A stretch of DNA of 64,000 bases from Peptococcaceae bacterium 1109 (lineage in GTDB: Bacteria > Bacillota > Limnochordia > Darwinibacteriales > Darwinibacteriaceae), in NCBI GenBank assembly GCA_001028815.1, contig LDJB01000001.1, forward strand, positions 825,634 to 889,633. Direction: 5' to 3'. Position numbers and translations under genes: made by a program. The notes under the pieces were generated by a model. That model ran no database searches. It had not been told where the DNA came from and saw only the letters and a program-made list of their open reading frames with translations. Shown piece by piece: positions 49,152 to 61,104 of the stretch (position 1 is the stretch's first letter; every line of letters starts with the position of its first letter).

Positions 49152-50159
49152 TCAGTTTCGCGCGGCCCGGCGGTATTGGAACGGCCAGTTCTCCCTCTGA
49201 TTCCCCATGGCCTGCAGAGGCCAGTAAGGGTTGCGGAGAAGCTCGCGCCCTAGGGCTACAAAATCCGCTCGCCCATTGGCCAAGATCTCCTCAGCTAGTT
49301 CCGTTGTGGAGATGAGGCCCACCGCGATCGTAGGTATGACGGCTCCCCTCCGTACTGCCTCTGCAAAGGGCACTTGATACCCTGGCCGTGCCTGAATGGG
49401 CGCGGGCAAGAGCCCACCGGAACTCACATCGATCAAGTCCACGCCCGCCTCTTTGAGCTTGGCAGCGATCTGGACCGTATCCGAAACAGTGAGCCCGCCT
49501 TCCAGGTAGTCCACTGCGGAAAGGCGTACCGAAAGCGGCTTATCTTCCGGCCAGTGCGCTTTGGCCGCTTCCACAATCTCCAAGAGAAAGCGCATCCTCC
49601 CCGGGAGATCCCCTCCATACTCGTCATCGCGAGCGTTGCTCAACGGCGAGAGGAACTCGTGAATGAGGTAGCCGTGAGCGCCGTGGATCTGCAGCAGATC
49701 AAAGCCTGCCTCGGCTGCCCGTTTAGCTGCCAGGCCCCACTGACCCACAATGTCCTGGATCTCCCCCTGGGAAAGGGCCCGAGGCGTGGGCTGATCCGGG
49801 CCCGCGGGCAGGGCGGAGGGCGCCACCAGTTCTGGCCCGCATGCCTTCCGGCCCGCGTGGGCAATTTGGATGCCCATGACGGCCCCTTGCCGGCGGCAGA
49901 AGTCTACCAGCCGCCTGAGGGGTTCTACTTGCCTATCGTCCCAAAGGCCAAGATCCTGTGCGCTGATCCGCCCCCGAGGTTCCACAGCCGTGGCCTCCAC
50001 GATGATGCACCCTGTCCCCCCAACTGCCCGGCTGCCATAGTGGACGTAGTGCCACTCAAGGGCAAGGCCGTCCTCTTCTGCAGAGTACTGGCACATGGCC
50101 GGCATCACGATTCGGTTAGGAAAAACAACAGATTTGAGGGTAAAGGGAGAAAACAACAT
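49152..50159 (-). CDS. NADH:flavin oxidoreductase / old yellow enzyme (YqjM/NamA type)
   Basis: A 335-residue FMN-binding TIM barrel of the YqjM (NADPH dehydrogenase) class. MPAMCQYSAEEDG holds the redox-tuning Cys, GIQIAHAGRKA the His-Ala-Gly-Arg core, and LIHEFLSPLSNARDDEYGG the loop that binds substrate. These enzymes reduce activated C=C bonds. As the last gene of the inositol operon, starting directly after the iolG stop with GAGGTG inside iolG, it may act on an enone or dione side product of the pathway; this role is a guess. Confidence 0.92.
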   Translation of the reverse strand: MLFSPFTLKSVVFPNRIVMPAMCQYSAEEDGLALEWHYVHYGSRAVGGTGCIIVEATAVEPRGRISAQDLGLWDDRQVEPLRRLVDFCRRQGAVMGIQIAHAGRKACGPELVAPSALPAGPDQPTPRALSQGEIQDIVGQWGLAAKRAAEAGFDLLQIHGAHGYLIHEFLSPLSNARDDEYGGDLPGRMRFLLEIVEAAKAHWPEDKPLSVRLSAVDYLEGGLTVSDTVQIAAKLKEAGVDLIDVSSGGLLPAPIQARPGYQVPFAEAVRRGAVIPTIAVGLISTTELAEEILANGRADFVALGRELLRNPYWPLQAMGNQRENWPFQYRRAARN

Positions 50160-51176
50160 CTACCGCACCTCGGAGATCTTCACCGGCTTGCCTGTCTTTG
50201 CAGACTCGGTGGCCGCAATCGCGATATACAGCGCCTCTAAGCCATCGATGCCCGTGACAGGCGGTTCCTTATCCTCGGTTACGGCTGTGACGAAGTCCTG
50301 CAGCTCTTGGGCAAAGGATCCCATATAACGTTCTAAGAAGAAATAGAGCGGTTTGTCGGTGCACACGCCATCTGCGGTGCTCACTTCCACATTAGTGGGC
50401 TTTTCGTTGAACGCCTGTGCTCCGCCCTTGGAACCGAAGGCCTCGACGCGCTGGTCGTAGCCGTAAACGGCCTTGCGGCTGTTATCGATGACGCCAATGG
50501 CACCGTTAGCAAATTTCAGGGTAATAACTGCTGTATCAAAGTCGCCTGCTTTGCCGATCTCAGGATCAACAAGTACTGCACCCTTGGCGTAGACTTCCTC
50601 AACCTCACTGCCTGTCAAGTAACGGGCCATATCGAAATCATGGATGGTCATATCCATGAAGATGCCGCCAGAAACCTTCACATACTCGATGGGAGGCGGG
50701 CCTGGGTCGCGGCTTGTAATCTTGACGATGTGCACATCACCGAGCTGCCCTGTCTGAATAAGCTCGCGGATCCGGCGGAAGTTCCGGTCAAAGCGCCGGT
50801 TGAAGCCCAGCTGTAGTTTGACCCCAGCTTCTTCCACAGCCTTCAAGGCTTCTTTCGTCTTTTCCAAGTCGTTAGCAATAGGCTTCTCACAGAAAATGTC
50901 CTTGCCCGCTTTCGCCGCCGCGATGATGTAATCCGCGTGGGTGTCTGTTGGCGAACAGATCAAAACTGCATCCACCTCTGGATTATTGATCACTTCGTGG
51001 GGATCGGCGGTTACGTTAGTGATGTTAAACTGCTTTGCCCATTCCCGAGTGGCGTCCACCGCCACGTCAGCAACGCTCACCACTTCTACATTGGGCACAT
51101 TGTGGCACAGGTTCTCCACATGGATCTTACCGATCCTGCCAGCGCCCAGCACACCGACGCGCAACTTCTTTGTCAT
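50160..51176 (-). CDS. iolG: myo-Inositol 2-dehydrogenase (Gfo/Idh/MocA family)
   Basis: A 338-residue NAD-dependent dehydrogenase that oxidises myo-inositol to scyllo-inosose. VGVLGAGRIGKIHVENL is the Rossmann motif, FCEKPIANDLE holds the catalytic Lys of the E-K-P motif, and GGIFMDMTIHDFDMARYL carries the Asp and His (D-x3-H-D) that complete the active site. The length equals Bacillus IolG (344). The position in an iolBDE operon supports the assignment. AGAGGAGGG precedes the ATG. Confidence 0.93.
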   Translation of the reverse strand: MTKKLRVGVLGAGRIGKIHVENLCHNVPNVEVVSVADVAVDATREWAKQFNITNVTADPHEVINNPEVDAVLICSPTDTHADYIIAAAKAGKDIFCEKPIANDLEKTKEALKAVEEAGVKLQLGFNRRFDRNFRRIRELIQTGQLGDVHIVKITSRDPGPPPIEYVKVSGGIFMDMTIHDFDMARYLTGSEVEEVYAKGAVLVDPEIGKAGDFDTAVITLKFANGAIGVIDNSRKAVYGYDQRVEAFGSKGGAQAFNEKPTNVEVSTADGVCTDKPLYFFLERYMGSFAQELQDFVTAVTEDKEPPVTGIDGLEALYIAIAATESAKTGKPVKISEVR

Positions 51177-51199: not shown

Positions 51200-52096
51200 T
51201 TAGATACCGGCTTTTTCCCGGATATACTCCCGGGCCTTTTTCGCATACTCCAGCGGCGGAGCCTTGTATGGATCCTGCTCAGCCTCAACGATAATCCAGC
51301 CCTTGTAGTCGATCTTGTTGAGGGCTTCAATGATGGGCACAAAATCAATGCGGCCGTCGCCAGGCACAGTAAAGACGCCCCGCTTTACAGCTTGCAGGAA
51401 GCTGAGGTTTTCATTCTTCACCGCTTCTTCCACCTCAGCCCGGAGATCCTTAAAGTGCACATGCTTGATGCGGTGACCGAACCGCTCTATGAGTTCCAAG
51501 GAATTGCCGCCCGCGAAGCTGATGTGCCCTGTATCTAGGAGAAGGGATACCAGCTCTTCGTCGGTACTCTCCATCAGGCGGGCCGTCTCTTCCATGGTCT
51601 GGACGCCCGTACCCATGTGGTGGTGGTACACAATCTGCATGCCTTTTTCGTGGGCAAGCTTACCCAGCTTGTTCAGGCCATCTGCCAGGCGATCCCACTC
51701 CTCATCGGTAAACACCGGCTTGTTAGGGAAGAGCGGCGTATCCATCTGTCCCTGAATGGAATGGCCTTGCTCAGAGACGACGATCACCTTAGCTCCCATA
51801 GCATTGAGGAAATCCCGATGCTTCACAAAGGCTTCAGCTGTTTCCTCATAGGGCTTGGTGGTTAAGAACGCACTGAACCAAGCGCTGGCAATGGACAGTC
51901 CCCGAGGCTCTAAAGCTGCCTTCAGGACTTCTGGATCCCGAGGATACTTGTTCCCCACTTCGCTGCCCTCATAGCCCGCAAGTGCCATCTCATCGATACA
52001 CTGTTCAAACGGAATCTCCCCGCCAAGCTCGGGCATATCATCGTTTGTCCAGGCGATGGGGGCAATACCTAACCTGACATCACCTTTCTTCAGCAC
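51200..52096 (-). CDS. iolE: Inosose dehydratase
   Basis: A 298-residue TIM-barrel enzyme that dehydrates scyllo-inosose to 3D-(3,5/4)-trihydroxycyclohexane-1,2-dione. RLGIAPIAWTNDDMPELGG at the N-terminus is diagnostic of IolE; IVYHHHMGTGVQTMEE and LLLDTGHISFAGG give metal ligands. The true start is probably the GTG at 52096, with GAGGTGG at a spacing of five, which gives the Bacillus length (297). The longer frame to 52219 runs into iolD. The gene follows iolD by 10 bases. Confidence 0.95.
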   Translation of the reverse strand: MLKKGDVRLGIAPIAWTNDDMPELGGEIPFEQCIDEMALAGYEGSEVGNKYPRDPEVLKAALEPRGLSIASAWFSAFLTTKPYEETAEAFVKHRDFLNAMGAKVIVVSEQGHSIQGQMDTPLFPNKPVFTDEEWDRLADGLNKLGKLAHEKGMQIVYHHHMGTGVQTMEETARLMESTDEELVSLLLDTGHISFAGGNSLELIERFGHRIKHVHFKDLRAEVEEAVKNENLSFLQAVKRGVFTVPGDGRIDFVPIIEALNKIDYKGWIIVEAEQDPYKAPPLEYAKKAREYIREKAGI

Positions 52097-52106
52097 TGCA
52101 TCCACC

Positions 52107-53978
52107 TCATCTCGTTTTGTATTTCGCCAAATACTCAGCGTCACGCTGTGCTGCTGTGAGTACATCAGGATTCTCCGAAACCTCAGCCACGCCCACGCGC
52201 CACCAAGACTCGTAGCCATCGCTTTGAGTAGCTGGGAGAATCTTAATGTCGATCAAAGTGCTCACTTTAGACTCCCTGGCTGCCTGAAGTGCCTTAGGCA
52301 GGTCTGCCAGGTTCCGGACGGAGAACGTCTTCACACCCATGGCTCCAGCCATTTGGGCGAAGTCGATAGGCACATAGTCCCCGGTGAGCAAGCCTGTCTC
52401 TGGATCCCGGAAGCGAAGCTCGTTGCCGAAGCCCTTGCTCCCTTTGCTCTTCTGCAGGCTGAGGATGCTCTGGAAGCCGCCGTTGTCAAACATCACAACG
52501 TTGATCTTCATGCCCTCTTGCACACTGGTAAGAAGCTCAGAGTGGAGCATGAGGTAGCTTCCATCGCTGACCAGCGCGAAAATCTCCCGCTCTGGTTCAG
52601 CCATTTTCACGCCGAGAGCTCCCGCAATCTCGTAACCCATAGTGGAGAAGCCGTACTCCATATGGTAGGTCTTAATACCCTTGCTCCGCCACAAGCGGTG
52701 CAAATCACCGGGGAGGCTGCCCGCGGCGCAGACCACGATATCGCTGTCCTGGACGAACTCGTTCACAACGCCCAAGGCGGTGGTCTGGACAATCCCCTCA
52801 GGAGACTCGAGGCTGTACAGCCGGTCAACTTCCTTGTTCCAGTCGTCCTTGAGCTTCTTCAGATAATCCTCAGTGTAACCTGATTTATAGCCTGCTTCTT
52901 TGAGGAGCGTGCCAAGCTCGATGAGCCCCAACTTGGCATCAGCTTGGACGTACACAGAATCCATCTTCAGGGCATCAAACCGGTTCACGTTAATGCTGAC
53001 AAAATCGACCTCAGGATTCTGGAAAGCAGTCTTGGAGGCTGTGGAGAAGTCCTGCAGCCGTGAACCTACCGCGATGATCAGATCGGCTTCCTTGGCAAGA
53101 AGGTTTGCTGCTTGCGTACCGGTAGTCCCAATTCCGCCCATGTTGAGGGGATGGTCCCAAACGAGGCAGCTCTTGCCCGCCTGGGTAACACCTACTGGAA
53201 TCTGGAAGGCTTCCGCAAACTCCCGGAGCTCTTCGGTGGCGAGAGAGTAGTGCACCCCACCCCCTGCGATAATCACTGGCCGCTTCTTCTTCAGGATCAG
53301 ATCCACAGCCCGTTTCAAGGCATTGGGTGAAGGCACGTCCCGGTCAATGTGCCAGATGCGCTTGTCAAAGAAGCTCGCGGGGAAATCATATGCCTCGGTT
53401 TGGACATCTTGAGGCAGAGCCAAGGTTACCGCACCTGTCTCCGCTGGGTCAGTAAGGACCCGCATGGCCTGCATGCAGGCTTCCACCAGCTGTTCAGGGC
53501 GATCAACCCGGTCCCAATACTTGGAAACTGCCTTGAAGGCGTCGTTGGCAGTGATGGTGTAGCTGTGGGGCATCTCCATCTGCTGCAGGACGGGGTCAGG
53601 CTGCCGGTCTGCGAAGGTATCCCCTGGTAGAATCAGTACGGGGATGCGGTTCACAGTGGCCGTAGCCGCGCCGGTCACCATGTTAAGGGCCCCAGGCCCA
53701 ATGGAGCTTGTGCAGGCCATGATCTGCAGCCTGTTGTGCTGCTTGGCATACGCTGTGGCCAGATGGACCATGCCTTGCTCATTCATACCCCGGTAGTACC
53801 TTAGGCCAAGGCCGGGCAAATTCTCCAAAGCCTCTCCAATACCTAAGACGTTGCCGTGGCCGAAGATGCCGCAAACACCATTCACGAACTTGTACTCCTG
53901 CCCGTCGAGCTCAACGTACTGAGCATCCAAGAAACGCAGCAGGGCCTGAGCGGTTGTCAGGCGGATTGTCTTACCCAT
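52107..53978 (-). CDS. iolD: 3D-(3,5/4)-trihydroxycyclohexane-1,2-dione hydrolase
   Basis: A 623-residue thiamine-diphosphate enzyme that opens the ring to give 5-deoxy-D-glucuronate. [17 protein letters not shown] is the N-terminal cofactor-activating region with its Glu nearby, [20 protein letters not shown] follows, and the ThDP motif runs from [18 protein letters not shown] to [10 protein letters not shown]. Length equals Bacillus IolD (637). The ATG at 53978 follows GAGGAGG; iolB ends one base upstream. Confidence 0.96.
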
Positions 53979-53979
53979 G

Positions 53980-54777
53980 CTACTTCCTCCTCTCGGGGAA
54001 AAATATTGCATCCTTATCTGTCACCCACTTATGTTCAGGGACGAACGTGGGTGTAATGTACGGCTCATCATCAAGATGGCGGATCACCCAGAGGTAGTAC
54101 ATGGCATACCCCGGGGCCGCTGTCTGGGGGTGAACTTCGTTCTGGACGATCTTCACCGTGGATTGGTGGGTTACCTTAACCAGATTCTCGCCGAGTACCG
54201 CTACGCCAAATCCTTGTTCAGGAAGGAAGCGATAGTGGTAAATCTCAGGCTGAGGATGATGGTGCGGTGGGTAGCTGGACCACTTTCCAGGGAAGGTAAT
54301 CACTTCACCCAGGACTAAGTTGGCGTCCGGTGCGTTAGACTTGTCAAAAATCGTCCGGACGATCCTTGTGGAAGTCTCCTGCATTGTCCCCTTACCCCGT
54401 TCCTCACTGCGGACGTCCTCAGCACTGTAGAACTTGGGTGCGAAAAACTTGGGATTGGTTGTGGCCTGCACTGCAAACTCCACTTCGCTCTTGGCGGTAA
54501 TCTCCACCTGAGTTCCTGCAGGCACATGCAAGCAGGGGCACGACTCGTGGAACAGCGATGTCCGCTCTGCGCTGGCGGTCTCATCGCCGAACTTGAACTC
54601 GGCGCTGCCGTCCATGAGTAGGTAAGCTACCTCTTTCTCTGTCTTTTCCCGATGAACTTCGCCGGCCCTAAGCCGCAGGATACCAAAGTCAATCATGGTA
54701 TCGAGGGTTGCTTCCCCTTCTGTGGTGATGGGTGTATAACCCCATCCGTACGGTTCCTTCCTATCGATGAGCAGCAC
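53980..54777 (-). CDS. iolB: 5-Deoxy-glucuronate isomerase
   Basis: A 265-residue cupin-type isomerase that turns 5-deoxy-D-glucuronate into 2-deoxy-5-keto-D-gluconate (DKG). [19 protein letters not shown] holds the metal-binding His cluster, and [20 protein letters not shown] is the conserved C-terminal block. The GTG at 54777 has AAAGGGGTGG at a good distance; GTG 54786 is an alternative. DKG is the last intermediate for which the operon has a standard enzyme, because IolC and IolJ are not in the window. Confidence 0.94.
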
Positions 54778-54794
54778 GGCTGCCACCCCTTTCT

Positions 54795-55748
54795 TTAACT
54801 ATTCTTCCGTCCCAGCACTGCTTTGGCCTTTTCAACTATGGCCTCGCTAGTCAAGCCGAAGCGCTGCTGGAGGTATTCCACAGAGCCCACTTCACCAAAG
54901 AGATCCTGCACACCTACTCGCTCCATGGGCACCGGGTGATGCTGGGAGAGGACTTCCGCGACCGCTGAACCCAAGCCATTGATCACGTTGTGGTTTTCTG
55001 CAGTGACCACCGCGCCTGTTTCCTGCGCTGCCTTGATCAAGAGCTCTGCGTCAATAGGCTTGATGGTAAACATATTAATGACTCTGGCCCCGATTCCCTC
55101 CTCAGCCAGAGCCTCTGCGGCTTCTAGCGCCTCTGGAACCAAGATACCTGTGGCAACAATGGTCAGATCGTCACCATCCCGGAGGACCTTGCCCTTGCCG
55201 ATGGTAAACTCGGTGCCAGGGGCGTAGATCTTAACAGGCTGTTTGCGGTTCACCCTAAGGTAGACTGGAGTATCCATGGCTGCTACCTGCGGAAGGATGG
55301 CCCGCATCATCACATTATCCACTGGTTCAATCACTGTCATGGTGGGGATGCCCCGCAAAAAGCCAACATCTTCTAAGGGCATATGGGTCCCACCGTTGAA
55401 GGCCGCTGTGACTCCAGGGTCGGTCCCTACGATCTTCACCGGCAGCTGCGCGTAGGCCACAGACATATAGATCTGATCCAAGGCCCGCCGCGCGTTAAAG
55501 CACGCGAAGGTATGGGTAAAGGGGATTTTCCCCACAGCTGCCAGTCCCGCAGCCATCCCCAGCATATTGGCTTCTTGCACACCTACGTTGATGGCCCGTT
55601 CTGGGAAACGCTTTAGGAACTTGATAGTGGAGTTCGAGTTCATCAAGTCCGCATCCAACACCACAATTTGAGGATTCTCCTCTGCAAGCTCCATCAGGGC
55701 ATCAATATACGCATCTTTCATCGCCACTTCATCGATGCTAAACCGCAT
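54795..55748 (-). CDS. Transketolase, C-terminal subunit (pyrimidine and C domains)
   Basis: A 317-residue subunit of a two-part transketolase. VVLDADLMNSNSTIKF and RAINVGVQEANMLGMAAGL, with catalytic Glu59, are the pyrimidine-domain blocks. Compared by eye with ordinary split transketolases, Asp110 (IVGTDPGVT) stands where a phosphate-contacting His is usual and Asn118 (AAFNGGTH) where the conserved Asp of GEDG is usual; His122 is kept. The start overlaps the N-terminal subunit gene by 11 bases with GGGGGCAGAGG as ribosome binding site. I infer a changed donor, namely DKG. Alternatives are 1-deoxyxylulose synthase-like enzymes, but the length and partner favour transketolase. Confidence 0.85.
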   Translation of the reverse strand: MRFSIDEVAMKDAYIDALMELAEENPQIVVLDADLMNSNSTIKFLKRFPERAINVGVQEANMLGMAAGLAAVGKIPFTHTFACFNARRALDQIYMSVAYAQLPVKIVGTDPGVTAAFNGGTHMPLEDVGFLRGIPTMTVIEPVDNVMMRAILPQVAAMDTPVYLRVNRKQPVKIYAPGTEFTIGKGKVLRDGDDLTIVATGILVPEALEAAEALAEEGIGARVINMFTIKPIDAELLIKAAQETGAVVTAENHNVINGLGSAVAEVLSQHHPVPMERVGVQDLFGEVGSVEYLQQRFGLTSEAIVEKAKAVLGRKNS

Positions 55749-56583
55749 TTCCCTCTGCCCCCTTCAGCGCTGCGATGGCTTGCTCAATCTGCTCCTTGGT
55801 AAAGCGCATGTGGTGGTTGAACTCCACGCCTTCCGCGAAAGTGCAGCCCTTCCCTTTGATGGTGTGGAGGATGATCACCGAACTCTTACCCTCCACCTCT
55901 TGGGCCCTGCGGATGGCTTCATAAATCTGGGCCACGTCGTGCCCATCTACCTCTTGGGCGAACCAGCCGAAAGTCTCCCACTTCGCCCTGAGATCACCCA
56001 GAGGATTAATGTTGTCTACGTACCCATCGAGCTGCTGTTTGTTGTAGTCTACAAAGACGATGAGGTTATCCAGTTTGGCGTTGCCCCCGTAGAGGGCCCC
56101 CTCCCAAATCTGCCCCTCTTGGCATTCCCCATCTCCTAACACGAGGTAGACATAGTTGTCCTTCCCGTCCATCTTCAGGCCCAAGGCTACGCCTAGCCCT
56201 GTGGACATTCCCTGCCCTAAAGAGCCTGTGGTCATGTCCACCCCCGGTGTCTTGTTCCGGTCCGCATGGCTGGGAAGGTTTGTTCCCCCTTGATTCAGCG
56301 TCTTCAGCATGTCGTAAGGGAAGAATCCCTTGAGGGCAAGGGTTGCATACAAAGCAGGCCCTGCGTGGCCCTTGGAAAGCACCAGCCAATCCCGCCCGTC
56401 CCAGCGGGGCTCTTCTGGTTTATAGCGCATTACTTTACCATACAGCACGGCAAGAAGTTCCACGATGGACATTGCGCCCCCTATGTGGCCAAAGCCGAGG
56501 TGGCCGAACTCTTCCAGCGTGGCAATGCGGATCTCTTTCGCTAACTCTTCCAGCCGTTGTTGTTCCTCACGTTCCAACATCAC
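55738..56583 (-). CDS. Transketolase, N-terminal subunit (ThDP-binding domain)
   Basis: A 281-residue subunit that binds thiamine diphosphate. GHIGGAMSIVELLAVLYG, LSKGHAGPALYATLALKG, TTGSLGQGMSTGLGVALG, the ThDP motif LGDGECQEGQIWEG through DNLIVFVDYNKQQ, and GHDVAQIYEAI are all canonical. Two-gene transketolases are common in Firmicutes and Archaea and have been recruited for C2-unit removal in other pathways (sulfoquinovose). Gene starts at ATG 56583 (a GTG and a second ATG are adjacent), 12 bases after the LarA-like gene. Confidence 0.92.
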   Translation of the reverse strand: MMLEREEQQRLEELAKEIRIATLEEFGHLGFGHIGGAMSIVELLAVLYGKVMRYKPEEPRWDGRDWLVLSKGHAGPALYATLALKGFFPYDMLKTLNQGGTNLPSHADRNKTPGVDMTTGSLGQGMSTGLGVALGLKMDGKDNYVYLVLGDGECQEGQIWEGALYGGNAKLDNLIVFVDYNKQQLDGYVDNINPLGDLRAKWETFGWFAQEVDGHDVAQIYEAIRRAQEVEGKSSVIILHTIKGKGCTFAEGVEFNHHMRFTKEQIEQAIAALKGAEGNAV

Positions 56584-56595
56584 TACGAGATCACC

Positions 56596-57852
56596 TCAAT
56601 TCACTACCTTTGGTAAGGTGGAGGCCCCAAGGGGGAACACCGCATAGGTAAACTCCCGCCCGAGGATCTCCTGGGCACGCTCTAGGGCATAATCCAGGGA
56701 AGCCGTGACCGTCACGCCCACCATTTTCTCGTTGGCAAGCACATCTGAGGTCACCAAGATGATCTCCGCCCCAGTGCTCACCTTACTGATTGCCGCAGCC
56801 TTGTGGCCGCCTAAGACAAACTGCCGCCTCAGGTCTTCCAGCAGATCTTCAGGGGCCTTGTCCGCGGTCATCCACTCTTGGAAGATCTTGCTCCCATACC
56901 CTTCCCCGCACTCTGCTAAGAGGATGATTACCCCGCCAGGGCGCACAACCCCTGCGCAGTTATCTAGCGCTTTCTGGGCCTGGTAAAGGTTAATATCCTT
57001 GGGATCGCCCCCTGCGCTCACTACCGCTAGATCCACCTTGGCGGGCAGTTCTACCAAGCCCTCCTCAGCAAGGCGTTGACAGAGCACTCGGTGGGCCTTA
57101 ACCACGTGGCCAGCAGCGGCATCCACGATGCGCTGGTGCTCATCGACGATTACGTTGAGGATAAAGTCAATCCCCACCATGTTTGCGGCCTCCTCCAGGT
57201 CTTCCCGAACAGGGTTTCCTTCAAGGAGAGCCGCGACAGCAGCGTCCTCAACCATATGGGAATGGTTATCTGTAACAGTCCGCACCGAAGCGGTGCCGGG
57301 CACCATGGACTTAGCACCGCCAGAGTAGCCTGCAAAATAGTGGAACTCTACATTGGCCATGCAGAGGCGGAAATCAGCTTCAACAACCTCCCGAAAGACA
57401 TCCACTCTGGTGCCTCGGGCAGTGGTGCCGACGTGGACCACATCCTCTACGTCGTGGTTGATCACCCGGACTGTCTCGTAAACCTCTGCGCCTACAGACT
57501 GGCGCAGCTCCTCTTCACTCATAGGCCTGTGGAGCCCTAGGGCGATCACTACCGTCACTTGCTTCAGATTAACGCCAGCTTCCTCCAGTTCCTTAAGGAC
57601 TGGAGGAAGCAGTTTGTGATTAGGGCAAGGCCTGGTCATATCACTGGTGATGATCACGATGCGCTGATCTTTTTGCACCAGTTCGCCAAGGCGCGGCGTA
57701 CCAATGGGGTTCTCCAGGGCTGACAAGATCAGCTCCCCTTCAGTCCCTGCTCCAACAGTCTTACTGGGCAGGAATGTCCCCACGTAGCCACGCTCAGGCA
57801 GGGCAACTTCCCTTTCCACCTTGCCGTAGGGAAGTTTGAATTTTCGGGTCAT
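56596..57852 (-). CDS. LarA-family nickel-pincer hydroxyacid racemase/epimerase
   Basis: A 418-residue LarA homologue. Visible residues that match the lactate racemase active site are His108 (ALGLHRPMSEEEL), His171 and Lys181 (EFHYFAGYSGGAKSM) and His197/His199 (TDNHSHM); DMTRPCPNHKLLPPVL is the N-terminal family block. The lysine holds the nickel-pincer cofactor. Known members racemise lactate, malate and other 2-hydroxyacids. No larB, larC or larE is in the window. The ATG shares one base with the pgk stop (TAATG), with GGGAGG in pgk; the frame extended to 58053 is false. From operon context I predict malate (D to L) as substrate. Confidence 0.85.
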   Translation of the reverse strand: MTRKFKLPYGKVEREVALPERGYVGTFLPSKTVGAGTEGELILSALENPIGTPRLGELVQKDQRIVIITSDMTRPCPNHKLLPPVLKELEEAGVNLKQVTVVIALGLHRPMSEEELRQSVGAEVYETVRVINHDVEDVVHVGTTARGTRVDVFREVVEADFRLCMANVEFHYFAGYSGGAKSMVPGTASVRTVTDNHSHMVEDAAVAALLEGNPVREDLEEAANMVGIDFILNVIVDEHQRIVDAAAGHVVKAHRVLCQRLAEEGLVELPAKVDLAVVSAGGDPKDINLYQAQKALDNCAGVVRPGGVIILLAECGEGYGSKIFQEWMTADKAPEDLLEDLRRQFVLGGHKAAAISKVSTGAEIILVTSDVLANEKMVGVTVTASLDYALERAQEILGREFTYAVFPLGASTLPKVVN

Positions 57853-59117
57853 TAGTATTTCCTCCCGTACGCCTTCCGCAGTGCCGTGATGAGGGGGAGT
57901 TCCACCCCAGATAAGAAGCGGACCATGGCCCCGCCGGCAGTGCAGATGTAGCCAAAGCGCTCTGCAGGGTTTTCCACGAAGCGGCTGGCCGCGGTGACGC
58001 TGTCGCCCCCGCCCACCACGGAAAAGCCAGGTGCATCCGCAATGGCATTCCAAAGAGACTTGGTGCCCTTCTCAAAGAGGGCGTTCTCGTAAGCCCCTAC
58101 TGGCCCGTTGACAAAGATGGTGCCCGCTTGGGCAATCTCCTTTTCGAACAACGCGATACTTTCCGTTCCGATGTCCATGAACAGCGCAGCATCGTTGGGC
58201 AAATCAGCAAGGCTGCATTCCTTCCGCACTCCGTTGTCTTCGTAAGCGAAGTCCACTGGGTTGATAAACTTCTCTCCAAAGCGCTCAAGATACATCCTGG
58301 ACTCATCCACATACTTGAGGAGACCCCGATTTGCTAGGAACTTCTCCTGTGCCTGGCCAAACTTAACGCCCCTGGCCATCTGGAAGAGGATGCCCGTTAC
58401 GCCTCCAGTGAGGATGCGGTCTGCAGTGCCATTCTCCAAAACCTGCCGCAGCATACCGTACGCGTCCGAAACCTTCAAACCGCCTAGGACAAACACTGCG
58501 GGCCGTTCAGGGCTCTCTGCAACGCGGCTTAAAGCACCGAACTCTGCAATCAGCTGGCGCCCACCAGCTGTGGGCAGCAGTTCAGGAAAAGCCACCATGG
58601 AGGGAGCGTTCCGGTGTGCGGCAGCAAAGGCATCATTGACGTAGTAGTCGGCCAACGGTGCCAAGTTCCGTACCAGGTAGGTGTTGAGCATCTCTTCTGG
58701 CTTTAGCGTGACCGCATCTTCAAAGGTGGAGATCTCTTCACACAAATAGCGCACATTCCCCAGGAGGATAGCTTCTCCTGGCTGCAGGTCTTTCACAGCC
58801 TGCTGCGCCGCGGGCCCAGCCACATCATCAATGTACTTAACGGGCCGGCGCAGCCGCTCAGAAAGGAGCAGAGCGTGCTCAGCCATGGGCATGAGGTTGT
58901 GGTAATCAAGGGTATCCCCTTGGTGGGCGAGGATGGCCACCTTGGCTCCCCGATCAAGGAGATCCCGGATGGTGGGGATACTCTTATCGATGCGGTTCGT
59001 GTTTACTATTCTCTTAGTCTTCGGGTCGATAGGTGAGTTGATATCCACCCTGAGCAAGACAGTCTTACCGCTGTAATCGAAATCATCGATTGTATGAATG
59101 GGCAATGTCACGTTCAT
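57852..59117 (-). CDS. pgk: Phosphoglycerate kinase homologue, archaeal type
   Basis: A 421-residue PGK-fold protein. LLRVDINSPI (Arg23, Asp25, Asn27), NRIDKSIPTI (Arg42), LLGNVRYLCEEI, YVNDAFAAAHRNAPS, GGLKVSDAYG and GGGDSVTAAS are all present, so the acyl-phosphate and nucleotide sites look active. VKYIDDVAGPAAQQAV resembles archaeal PGKs. The H-x-G-R motif that binds the substrate 3-phosphate reads AHQGDTLDY: His65 is kept, but Asp68 stands in place of Arg. This suggests a substrate with a carboxylate instead of the phosphate. Ordinary glycolytic function remains possible. AAGGAAGG precedes the ATG, and the GAPDH stop lies 8 bases upstream. Confidence 0.88.
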   Translation of the reverse strand: MNVTLPIHTIDDFDYSGKTVLLRVDINSPIDPKTKRIVNTNRIDKSIPTIRDLLDRGAKVAILAHQGDTLDYHNLMPMAEHALLLSERLRRPVKYIDDVAGPAAQQAVKDLQPGEAILLGNVRYLCEEISTFEDAVTLKPEEMLNTYLVRNLAPLADYYVNDAFAAAHRNAPSMVAFPELLPTAGGRQLIAEFGALSRVAESPERPAVFVLGGLKVSDAYGMLRQVLENGTADRILTGGVTGILFQMARGVKFGQAQEKFLANRGLLKYVDESRMYLERFGEKFINPVDFAYEDNGVRKECSLADLPNDAALFMDIGTESIALFEKEIAQAGTIFVNGPVGAYENALFEKGTKSLWNAIADAPGFSVVGGGDSVTAASRFVENPAERFGYICTAGGAMVRFLSGVELPLITALRKAYGRKY

Positions 59118-59125
59118 CGCCTTCC

Positions 59126-60139
59126 TTAACGCAGGTTGAGGTACTTGTTGGTCATTCCAACGCCTTCGAGCCTGTCAGTCTGCATTTCCATAGCTGCCCG
59201 GACTGCGTCTAAGGACTCAGGGATTACCACAGCTTCCTGCGGGACGTTAAAGGCAAAGATAATGTGGCCTTCGAAGACCTCCACGGTCTCTTCGAACACC
59301 GCGATCTCGTACATGTCGCTGTGGGGGTTCCCCATATCCCGGGCATATCTAAACAGCGCAGCGTTGCCCTGGAACCCGTCCTTGATCCGGACAACACGAA
59401 TGCGGGGATGCGCGTTGAACATCTCCAGGACCTCATCGCGGGTCACAGGCTTCTTCGGCTTAATATTGGTAGAAATGATGTGCCCGTGAGTCACCGGAGT
59501 ATGCACCAACACGCCGGTAGCCTTGATATGCGGCATGATGAGCATCAAGTCAGATGCTTGGTGGCTAGGCACTGTATCAACCTTCAGCGCATTGGTGAGG
59601 CCCCGGTGGTAATCACCTGGGTCAGCGACGCGGCGGATGATAGTGATCATCACATTGTCCACCCCGACTGCCCGGTCGACGCAGTCAACGGCCCGAATCA
59701 AGCCTGTGGTGTTGCAAGAGGTGAGCTTAAGGAACTGCTTGCCCAGTCCTTCTTCGTAGTTCGCGTAGCCGTGGAAGAACACATCAGCAACACTTGTGCT
59801 TTCCCCACCTTGGAAAACCGCCTTCTTGCCGTACTTTTCATAGAGGGCCTTGTTCTTCTCCCCTACGCCAGCTGGGGTAGCATCCAAGATGACGTCGCAC
59901 TTCTGGATGAGTTCCTCCACAGTGCCAGAGACTTTGACGCCTGCGGCCTCCAGCTCATCCCTCTTTTCAGGCACAACCGCGTAGAAGTCATAGGGCATAC
60001 CCCTCTCAGCCAATGCCCGCACCGACAGGGTCAATCCAACGTCAGCCACACCAACGAGTTCCATGTCCTCTTGGCGCGCCACACCAGCGGCCAGCCGCAG
60101 ACCGATAACACCATATCCCACTACACCAACTTTAACCAC
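59126..60139 (-). CDS. Type II (archaeal-type) glyceraldehyde-3-phosphate dehydrogenase homologue
   Basis: A 337-residue archaeal-type GAPDH, which oxidises an aldehyde to an acyl phosphate with NAD(P). VVKVGVVGYGVIGLRLA binds the nucleotide, LTSCNTTGLIRAV carries the catalytic Cys142, and IIRRVADPGDYHRG and MPHIKATGVLVHTPVTHGH follow. The conserved S-H-H-G-P-D motif near the phosphate and catalytic site reads SHQASD here (His193 kept). Start is the GTG at 60139 with AGGGAGGA at 6 bases; the ATG at 60160 has no site. It is the first gene of the operon. In the pathway proposed here it would act on D-malate semialdehyde. Confidence 0.88.
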   Translation of the reverse strand: MVKVGVVGYGVIGLRLAAGVARQEDMELVGVADVGLTLSVRALAERGMPYDFYAVVPEKRDELEAAGVKVSGTVEELIQKCDVILDATPAGVGEKNKALYEKYGKKAVFQGGESTSVADVFFHGYANYEEGLGKQFLKLTSCNTTGLIRAVDCVDRAVGVDNVMITIIRRVADPGDYHRGLTNALKVDTVPSHQASDLMLIMPHIKATGVLVHTPVTHGHIISTNIKPKKPVTRDEVLEMFNAHPRIRVVRIKDGFQGNAALFRYARDMGNPHSDMYEIAVFEETVEVFEGHIIFAFNVPQEAVVIPESLDAVRAAMEMQTDRLEGVGMTNKYLNLR

Positions 60140-60180
60140 ACTGATTCCTCCCTGTAGCATATTGTTCCAAAATACACAAA

Positions 60181-60247
60181 GGTTTATATAGGTTCATTTT
60201 GGTTTATTTGAGGTGTCTTTGATTCCATTATATCCCTAAATGAACGG
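60181..60247. promoter_or_regulatory. DeoR-type operator: three phased direct repeats plus one inverted copy
   Basis: GGTTTATATA, GGTTCATTTT and GGTTTATTTG start at 60181, 60191 and 60201, an exact 10-base period. AAATGAACGG at 60238-60247 is an inverted copy inside the operon promoter spacer. Direct repeats fit DeoR/IolR-family binding. The triplet lies just downstream of the transcription start of the inositol operon. Confidence 0.7.
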
Positions 60248-60255
60248 TAATTCAA
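60227..60255 (-). promoter_or_regulatory. Promoter of the inositol/transketolase operon
   Basis: Minus strand TTGAAT (60255-60250), 17 bases, TATAAT (60232-60227). Predicted start near 60220 gives an 80-base leader that contains the three repeats. Confidence 0.75.
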
Positions 60256-60283: not shown

Positions 60284-60318
60284 AGGGAATACTGATTACG
60301 TGGAAAGAAGGGATGAAA

Positions 60319-61104
60319 ATGAACTCGGCAAGGCGCTTAGAGGAAATAGCTCAAATCCTCGCTGCCCGCGGCAGTGTCGAAGTACAAGAACTAGCAAAGC
60401 AGTTCAAAGTCACAGGCAAAACCATCCGCCTTGACTTGGACAAGCTGGCCCGGATGGGGATGGTAGAACGGGTTCACGGTGGTGCAGTTTTGAAACAGCC
60501 CCAGACCGATCTGTTCCAGATTCGAACCCGGCGCAAGACGAACATCCGAGAAAAGCAAGCCATCGCCCAAAAGGCCCTCGAACATATCAAGGAAGACGAT
60601 ATAATCCTTATTGACGGCGGAAGTACCACCCAGCCCCTAAGCCGTTTGCTGGGCGAAAAACGCCTTACCCTCCTCACCAACGATCTGTTAATCGCGGGCG
60701 AAGTGTTGGAAAAGGAAAACGTCACATTGTACGTGACCGGAGGCAAACTCAGCGATCACCGGCGTGAAGGAGTCTACACCCTCTTGGGGCGAGATGCAGA
60801 AGCCCTGCTCCAAAAGTATAAGGTGAACAAGCTCTTCCTAGCGGCCACGGCCCTGAACTTTAAGCAAGGGCTTATGGTCTATTCAGAAGATGTTGCCGCA
60901 GCAAAGAAGGCCATGCTGCAGGCGGCTGAAGAAGTCATTTTATTAGTGGATTATACTAAGTTCCACCAACAGGCCTTCCTCACCTTCGCGCGTTTAGAAG
61001 AAATCGACACCATCATCACCGATGACCGCATTCCTGACCATGATGTGAAGTATCTAGAAAGCAGGGGTATTAAGGTTGAGGTGGCAAGACTAAACGGGCC
61101 CTGA
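60319..61104 (+). CDS. DeoR/GlpR-family transcriptional regulator of the inositol operon
   Basis: A 261-residue DeoR regulator. The N-terminal winged helix-turn-helix is ILAARGSVEVQELAKQFKV followed by TGKTIRLDLDKLARMGMVER and VHGGAV; the sugar-phosphate-isomerase-like sensor domain has DDIILIDGGSTTQPLSRLL and LLTNDLLIAGEVLE. It is divergent from the operon and close to a repeat array, like IolR. IolR senses 2-deoxy-5-keto-gluconate 6-phosphate; with no IolC here, the ligand may be DKG itself. The ATG at 60319 has GAAGGG at six bases; the ATG at 60313 touches the site. Its last 35 bases overlap the convergent gene. Confidence 0.92.
   Translation: MNSARRLEEIAQILAARGSVEVQELAKQFKVTGKTIRLDLDKLARMGMVERVHGGAVLKQPQTDLFQIRTRRKTNIREKQAIAQKALEHIKEDDIILIDGGSTTQPLSRLLGEKRLTLLTNDLLIAGEVLEKENVTLYVTGGKLSDHRREGVYTLLGRDAEALLQKYKVNKLFLAATALNFKQGLMVYSEDVAAAKKAMLQAAEEVILLVDYTKFHQQAFLTFARLEEIDTIITDDRIPDHDVKYLESRGIKVEVARLNGP

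Follow-up and report, generated by a model that had tools for sequence, protein, structure and literature searches.

Which substrate does a phosphoglycerate kinase (PGK) homologue use when its substrate site has lost a conserved positive charge and its gene lies among genes of inositol and malate metabolism? We asked this for a gene at 57852-59117 (minus strand) of the window, by which we mean the whole 64,000-nucleotide stretch of Peptococcaceae bacterium 1109 DNA analysed here, using family scores, alignment, a tree and a predicted structure. The open reading frame, whose coordinates in the preliminary description proved exact, is complete and encodes a full-length PGK of 421 amino acids, which scores 347 bits against the Pfam PGK model PF00162 (cut-off 27). 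An AlphaFold2 model of the protein has a mean pLDDT of 92, and a fold search with this model returned the archaeal PGK of Pyrococcus horikoshii (2cun, TM 0.88) as the top match, followed by human, yeast and bacterial PGKs. Sequence comparison also placed the protein closest to 2cun (272 bits, versus 197 for the Thermotoga maritima enzyme).

The translation reads H65-Q-G-D68 where PGKs have H-x-G-R/K, as had been noticed earlier, and a multiple alignment that included the genome's canonical PGK and eight relatives places D68 in the column of the canonical Arg/Lys. Human PGK binds bisphosphoglycerate through Arg122, Arg65, Arg170, His62, Asp23, Asn25 and Arg38 (PMC3900376). All of these except Arg65 have counterparts in the window protein (D25, N27, R42, H65, R123 and R169 for human D23, N25, R38, H62, R122 and R170), and these six remaining 1,3-bisphosphoglycerate ligands are invariant in 89 of 89 aligned sequences. 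The nucleotide and catalytic motifs (K215, N337, E344 and GGGD at 369-372) are likewise intact, as the preliminary description had stated; across the aligned clade members K215 is found in 87 of 89, with Arg in the other two, and N337 and E344 in all 89. On closure of PGK, Arg65 and Arg170 form salt bridges to Asp218 (PMC7729029), and Asp218 is retained in the window protein. The idea that the arginine is supplied from a shifted position fails, since D68 sits on the canonical column and a search for a compensating conserved Arg or Lys at positions 60-80 found none. The preliminary description spoke of the arginine, and it is indeed absent, but Lys occupies the same site in some true PGKs: clostridia and S. 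aureus have H-x-G-K there, and the P. horikoshii enzyme 2cun has HQGK. The meaningful loss is thus that of the positive charge and not of Arg itself.

A gap-pgk-tpi cluster of canonical type lies on a different contig of the host genome; its PGK scores 588 bits and reads H-F-G-R. The variant is thus not the sole pgk, and the preliminary description's reading passes this check. All 15 genomes examined for it, the host's included, have a second PGK of canonical type in addition to the variant; in one of them (L052) the second match is fragmentary and lies at a contig end. Scanning species genomes gave at least 574 matching relatives, of which the best 80 were used; their records are from Bacillota, Spirochaetes, Chloroflexi, Poribacteria, Latescibacterota, proteobacteria and a small number of others, and many are metagenome-assembled genomes (MAGs). 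Among the 89 aligned sequences (the window and 88 loci), site 68 is Asp in 83, Gly in four and Ser in two, and never Arg or Lys, with the reservation that the proportion of Asp is biased because one of the two retrieval patterns spanned the HQGD motif. A motif-independent search of whole genomes, covering 398 genomes of the phylum, found nine members including the window (Asp in three, Gly in four, Ser in two), and these too are without Arg or Lys. In the tree, a branch with full support separates all 87 distinct variant sequences from the canonical bacterial PGKs. They fall on the same side as the archaeal enzyme, whose long branch leaves the exact place unsure.

The gene belongs to a run of minus-strand genes that almost touch one another, the ATG of larA overlapping the stop codon of the PGK gene by one base (TAATG). 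The run opens with an archaeal-type (type II) glyceraldehyde-3-phosphate dehydrogenase (GAPDH) homologue (59126-60160), followed by the PGK homologue, a LarA nickel-dependent racemase of the malate-racemase type (56596-57852) and the N-terminal (55738-56583; Pfam Transketolase_N, 169 bits) and C-terminal (54795-55748; family match and alignment) subunits of a split transketolase. Next come an IolB-like isomerase (53980-54786; Pfam KduI/IolB, 202 bits), which would convert 5-deoxyglucuronate to 2-deoxy-5-keto-D-gluconate, the trihydroxycyclohexanedione hydrolase IolD (52107-53978), the inosose dehydratase IolE (51200-52219) and the inositol 2-dehydrogenase IolG (50160-51176). The start of IolD was taken at MGKTIRL, the longest open reading frame extending to 54011; the IolE coordinates are those of the longest open reading frame, and homology begins at about residue 48. 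IolG, IolE and IolD all exceed their curated cut-offs (TIGR04380, 496 bits versus 355; TIGR04379, 436 versus 290; TIGR04377, 933 versus 715). The IolB-like protein reaches 119 bits with TIGR04378, below the cut-off of 205, which makes its product less certain. A NamA-like old yellow enzyme (49152-50159; Pfam Oxidored_FMN, 263 bits) closes the run and has no part in the route proposed below. Upstream of the operon lie a candidate sigma-70-like promoter on the minus strand (TTGAAT-17-TATAAT, 60227-60255), which is a consensus match only (10/12), and a divergent DeoR-family regulator on the plus strand (60313-61104; Pfam DeoRC 149 bits, HTH_DeoR 58 bits). A DeoR gene is also the divergent neighbour in loci L040, L041, L042 and L043.

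We hypothesise that the PGK homologue is quite likely an ATP-forming D-malyl-phosphate kinase, with D-malyl 1-phosphate as its substrate instead of 1,3-bisphosphoglycerate; every substrate and reaction of the route set out here we infer from sequence and context. In the classical pathway IolB yields 2-deoxy-5-keto-D-gluconate, and IolG, IolE, IolD and IolB would lead from myo-inositol to this compound in the same way. Written from C6, it would read CH2OH-CO-CHOH-CHOH-CH2-COOH, which by our own derivation is D-threo like xylulose and has a geometry suited to transketolase. It would bypass phosphorylation by IolC and cleavage by IolJ and be split by the dedicated split transketolase; the two-carbon ketol would pass to glyceraldehyde 3-phosphate to give xylulose 5-phosphate, and the remainder would be D-malate semialdehyde (D-3-hydroxy-4-oxobutanoate), which matches D-glyceraldehyde 3-phosphate except that a carboxylate takes the place of the phosphate group. 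As a putative phosphorylating D-malate semialdehyde dehydrogenase, the type II GAPDH homologue would use NAD and phosphate to convert this aldehyde to D-malyl phosphate, and the PGK homologue would then transfer the phosphoryl group to ADP, giving ATP and D-malate. In its substrate site R123 and R169 would suffice for a carboxylate in place of a phosphate, while D68 may reshape the pocket. Finally, LarA would turn D-malate into L-malate, and malic enzyme would turn L-malate into pyruvate. Malic enzymes take L-malate and a D-threo donor would give D-malate, so a racemase would be needed, again by our own derivation.

The residue change by itself would not prove malyl phosphate as the substrate. 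Malyl phosphate fits the operon best because transketolase acting on the IolB product would give malate semialdehyde, and a malate racemase and malic enzyme follow. The earlier suggestion of a different acyl phosphate, such as malyl phosphate, is supported by this fit and by a context conserved in dozens of loci, and the proposal made here widens it to an entire pathway.

The partner enzymes were compared with their canonical relatives. The GAPDH homologue scores 314 bits with TIGR01546 (cut-off 232.9) and keeps the catalytic Cys149 and His227; it departs from four solved archaeal enzymes at 22 sites that do not vary among them, some near the active site; H194 to Q, L217 to H, M218 to G and H221 to I are among these changes. 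In human transketolase H416 is a ligand of the donor phosphate. The window's C-terminal subunit has Asp there and Asn for human D424, as do the iol-type transketolases in 35 of 35 cases, whereas canonical transketolases, the host genome's own included, have His and Asp. Among 14 genomes whose fetched stretch lacked a transketolase, 11 have one of the Asp/Asn type elsewhere. In three close relatives of the window (L044, L046 and L086) the altered transketolase is absent from both locus and genome; the operons of L044 (3256-5013) and L086 (4009-5760) lack the transketolase pair, and upstream there is a ribulokinase-like gene, which scores 708 bits in L044 and was judged by its similar sequence start in L086.

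For LarA, the best match of all LarA families is the malate racemase LarAH6 (NCBIfam, 491.6 bits, below the equivalog cut-off of 500), and the nearest solved structure is the malate racemase Mar2 (6d6z). Gln293 and Lys351 of Mar2 have been linked to malate (PMC7583248). Both residues, together with the cofactor and catalytic residues, are invariant in 42 of 42 LarA sequences. LarC is needed for making the LarA cofactor; a search of the host genome (assembly 97% complete) with Pfam PF01969 gave no match to it. A malic enzyme of the type found in the neighbours' clusters is present elsewhere in the host genome.

We also looked for the steps that the route would bypass. No protein of the host genome passes the IolC cut-off, the best reaching 190 bits against 300; this candidate, a PfkB protein, scores higher as a fructokinase and was rejected. 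In the host genome and 13 relatives with iol genes and transketolase in the locus, IolC passes its cut-off in one of 14 genomes (one of the 13 relatives), and IolA, the malonate-semialdehyde dehydrogenase, also in one of 14, which is not the host. The host genome has six class II aldolases, none of them in the operon, and the family score cannot assign IolJ. In the open-licence literature, judged by title and abstract, we found no description of a route from inositol through transketolase and malate semialdehyde, and earlier work may exist elsewhere; in that literature malyl phosphate was met in engineered pathways only. A search for literature on growth of host species on inositol returned nothing usable.

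The association of these genes is conserved in relatives. After removal of duplicates and two short loci, 84 loci were counted, and the GAPDH homologue adjoins the PGK homologue in 81 of them. At least two of IolB, IolD and IolE are encoded in 44 of the 84, transketolase in 40, LarA in 54 and malic enzyme in 27. About 16 of the 84 have no iol gene, transketolase, LarA or malic enzyme nearby, so that the GAPDH-PGK pair is probably fed from more than one source with the same aldehyde or one like it. In the proteobacterial MAGs L091, L094, L101 and L106 the pair stands nearly alone, with none of these partners nearby. Genes resembling those for the E1, E2 and E3 components of acetoin dehydrogenase adjoin GAPDH, PGK, LarA and malic enzyme genes in L037 (8069-16341), L038 and L065 (133-12675), which suggests another source of the same aldehyde. 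A recurrent cluster in L059, L063 and L074 combines the pair and malic enzyme, without iolD, iolE or iolG, with a KduI/IolB-like protein (146 bits in L063, below the IolB cut-off), a 2-hydroxyacid-dehydrogenase-like and an Asp/Glu-racemase-like protein. In L034 (6826-13388), L035 (5046-10140) and L117 the pair lies with another split transketolase, which has Tyr and Asn at human H416 and D424, beside the 3-dehydro-scyllo-inosose hydrolase IolN (553 bits in L034, cut-off 245). These three loci probably encode a sister pathway that acts on a different keto acid of inositol origin. Tartrate semialdehyde formed from 5-keto-L-gluconate was considered for loci of the L034/L035 type and set aside, the ketose being L-threo by our own derivation; it remains a lead.

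Could the protein instead be an ordinary 3-phosphoglycerate kinase, an isozyme induced with the inositol genes to handle triose phosphates and tolerant of Asp68? The PGK fold, the motifs and the invariance of every other 3-phosphoglycerate ligand agree with this, and the solved structure of the yeast R65Q mutant (1qpg) indicates that losing Arg65 alone need not block the PGK fold. For the same reasons, namely the retained ligands and the yeast mutant, a side activity with 3-phosphoglycerate is possible. As the main function we consider it unlikely, since no genome examined for it was without a canonical PGK, the whole clade carries Asp, Gly or Ser where canonical PGKs have Arg or Lys, the partners are malate racemase and malic enzyme and not triose enzymes, and the partner transketolase has likewise lost a phosphate ligand. 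That the protein is a pseudo-enzyme or a regulatory PGK relative devoid of kinase activity seems highly improbable: it would account for the loss of one charge in the substrate site, but the catalytic and nucleotide residues are kept clade-wide and the gene is tightly coupled to that of the GAPDH homologue.

It is rather improbable that the window protein acts on the acyl phosphate of another dicarboxylic acid or of an aldonic acid, such as tartryl phosphate or a further hydroxy-dicarboxylyl phosphate, which transketolase would supply from some other keto acid derived from inositol. This reading draws on the IolN-type loci, with their different transketolase and, in L034 and L035, Gly for D68, and on malate racemases that epimerise tartrate too (PMC11770544). 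The window, however, has IolB and IolD and not IolN, and malic enzyme recurs next to members with D68, which points to malate. For malyl phosphate as the substrate we count the additional canonical pgk and gap of the genome, the residues at site 68, the conserved gene neighbourhood, the stereochemistry, the lost phosphate-site His of the transketolase, the mostly missing IolC and IolA, the malate-type LarA and the presence of malic enzyme; against it we count the failure to find LarC, the scores of IolB and LarA below their cut-offs, the close relatives L044, L046 and L086 without the altered transketolase, the roughly 16 loci without recognised partners, the full set of other 3-phosphoglycerate ligands together with the yeast R65Q structure, and the retrieval bias in the Asp68 counts.

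Compared with known systems, the window protein shares with the archaeal PGK 2cun the fold, the length, the catalytic and nucleotide motifs, six of seven bisphosphoglycerate ligands and the HQG motif, and its GAPDH neighbour is also archaeal-type; unlike 2cun, its clade has Asp, Gly or Ser for Lys or Arg, is separate from the canonical bacterial PGKs and has inositol and malate genes as neighbours. The operon has IolG, IolE, IolD and an IolB homologue in common with the classical myo-inositol pathway (iolGEDBCJA), but in place of an IolC over its cut-off, IolA and an operonic IolJ it has transketolase, GAPDH and PGK homologues and a malate racemase. The window LarA keeps Q293 and K351 of its nearest solved relative, Mar2/LarAH6, and differs in lying about 8 bits under the LarAH6 cut-off and inside an inositol operon. 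The synthetic pathway through malyl phosphate is unlike the proposed route in being engineered and starting from malate, and it reportedly phosphorylates the other carboxyl group of malate. It uses malyl phosphate on the way to 2,4-dihydroxybutyrate (PMC12104201). A precedent is found in sulfoquinovose breakdown, where a transketolase splits an acidic ketose and the ketol is passed to glyceraldehyde 3-phosphate (PMC9594981). The proposed route would share both features with this Sulfo-TK pathway (SqwGH); it would differ in having a carboxylate for the sulfonate, and in that the acidic aldehyde would be oxidised with formation of ATP and enter central metabolism.

Taken as a whole, we find it fairly likely that these genes belong to a route of inositol breakdown that is undescribed but widespread, occurring in Bacillota, Spirochaetota, Chloroflexota and other groups. 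In it, a GAPDH/PGK pair of archaeal type would have switched to D-malate semialdehyde and D-malyl phosphate, a dedicated transketolase would replace IolC, IolJ and IolA, and ATP would be made at malate. Hundreds of genomes, with at least 574 stretches matched, have a gene which the family models name phosphoglycerate kinase but which probably is no such enzyme, and the GAPDH homologue beside it would be mislabelled as GAPDH. We know of no earlier natural PGK with a different acyl phosphate, nor of a natural malyl phosphate intermediate; if the proposal is true, both would be the first of their kind. Surveys have used iolC as a core inositol marker (PMC9430895), and those based on it may then undercount inositol users. 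PGK is among the most conserved enzymes of life, and the clade would offer a natural one-charge switch for studying its substrate specificity.
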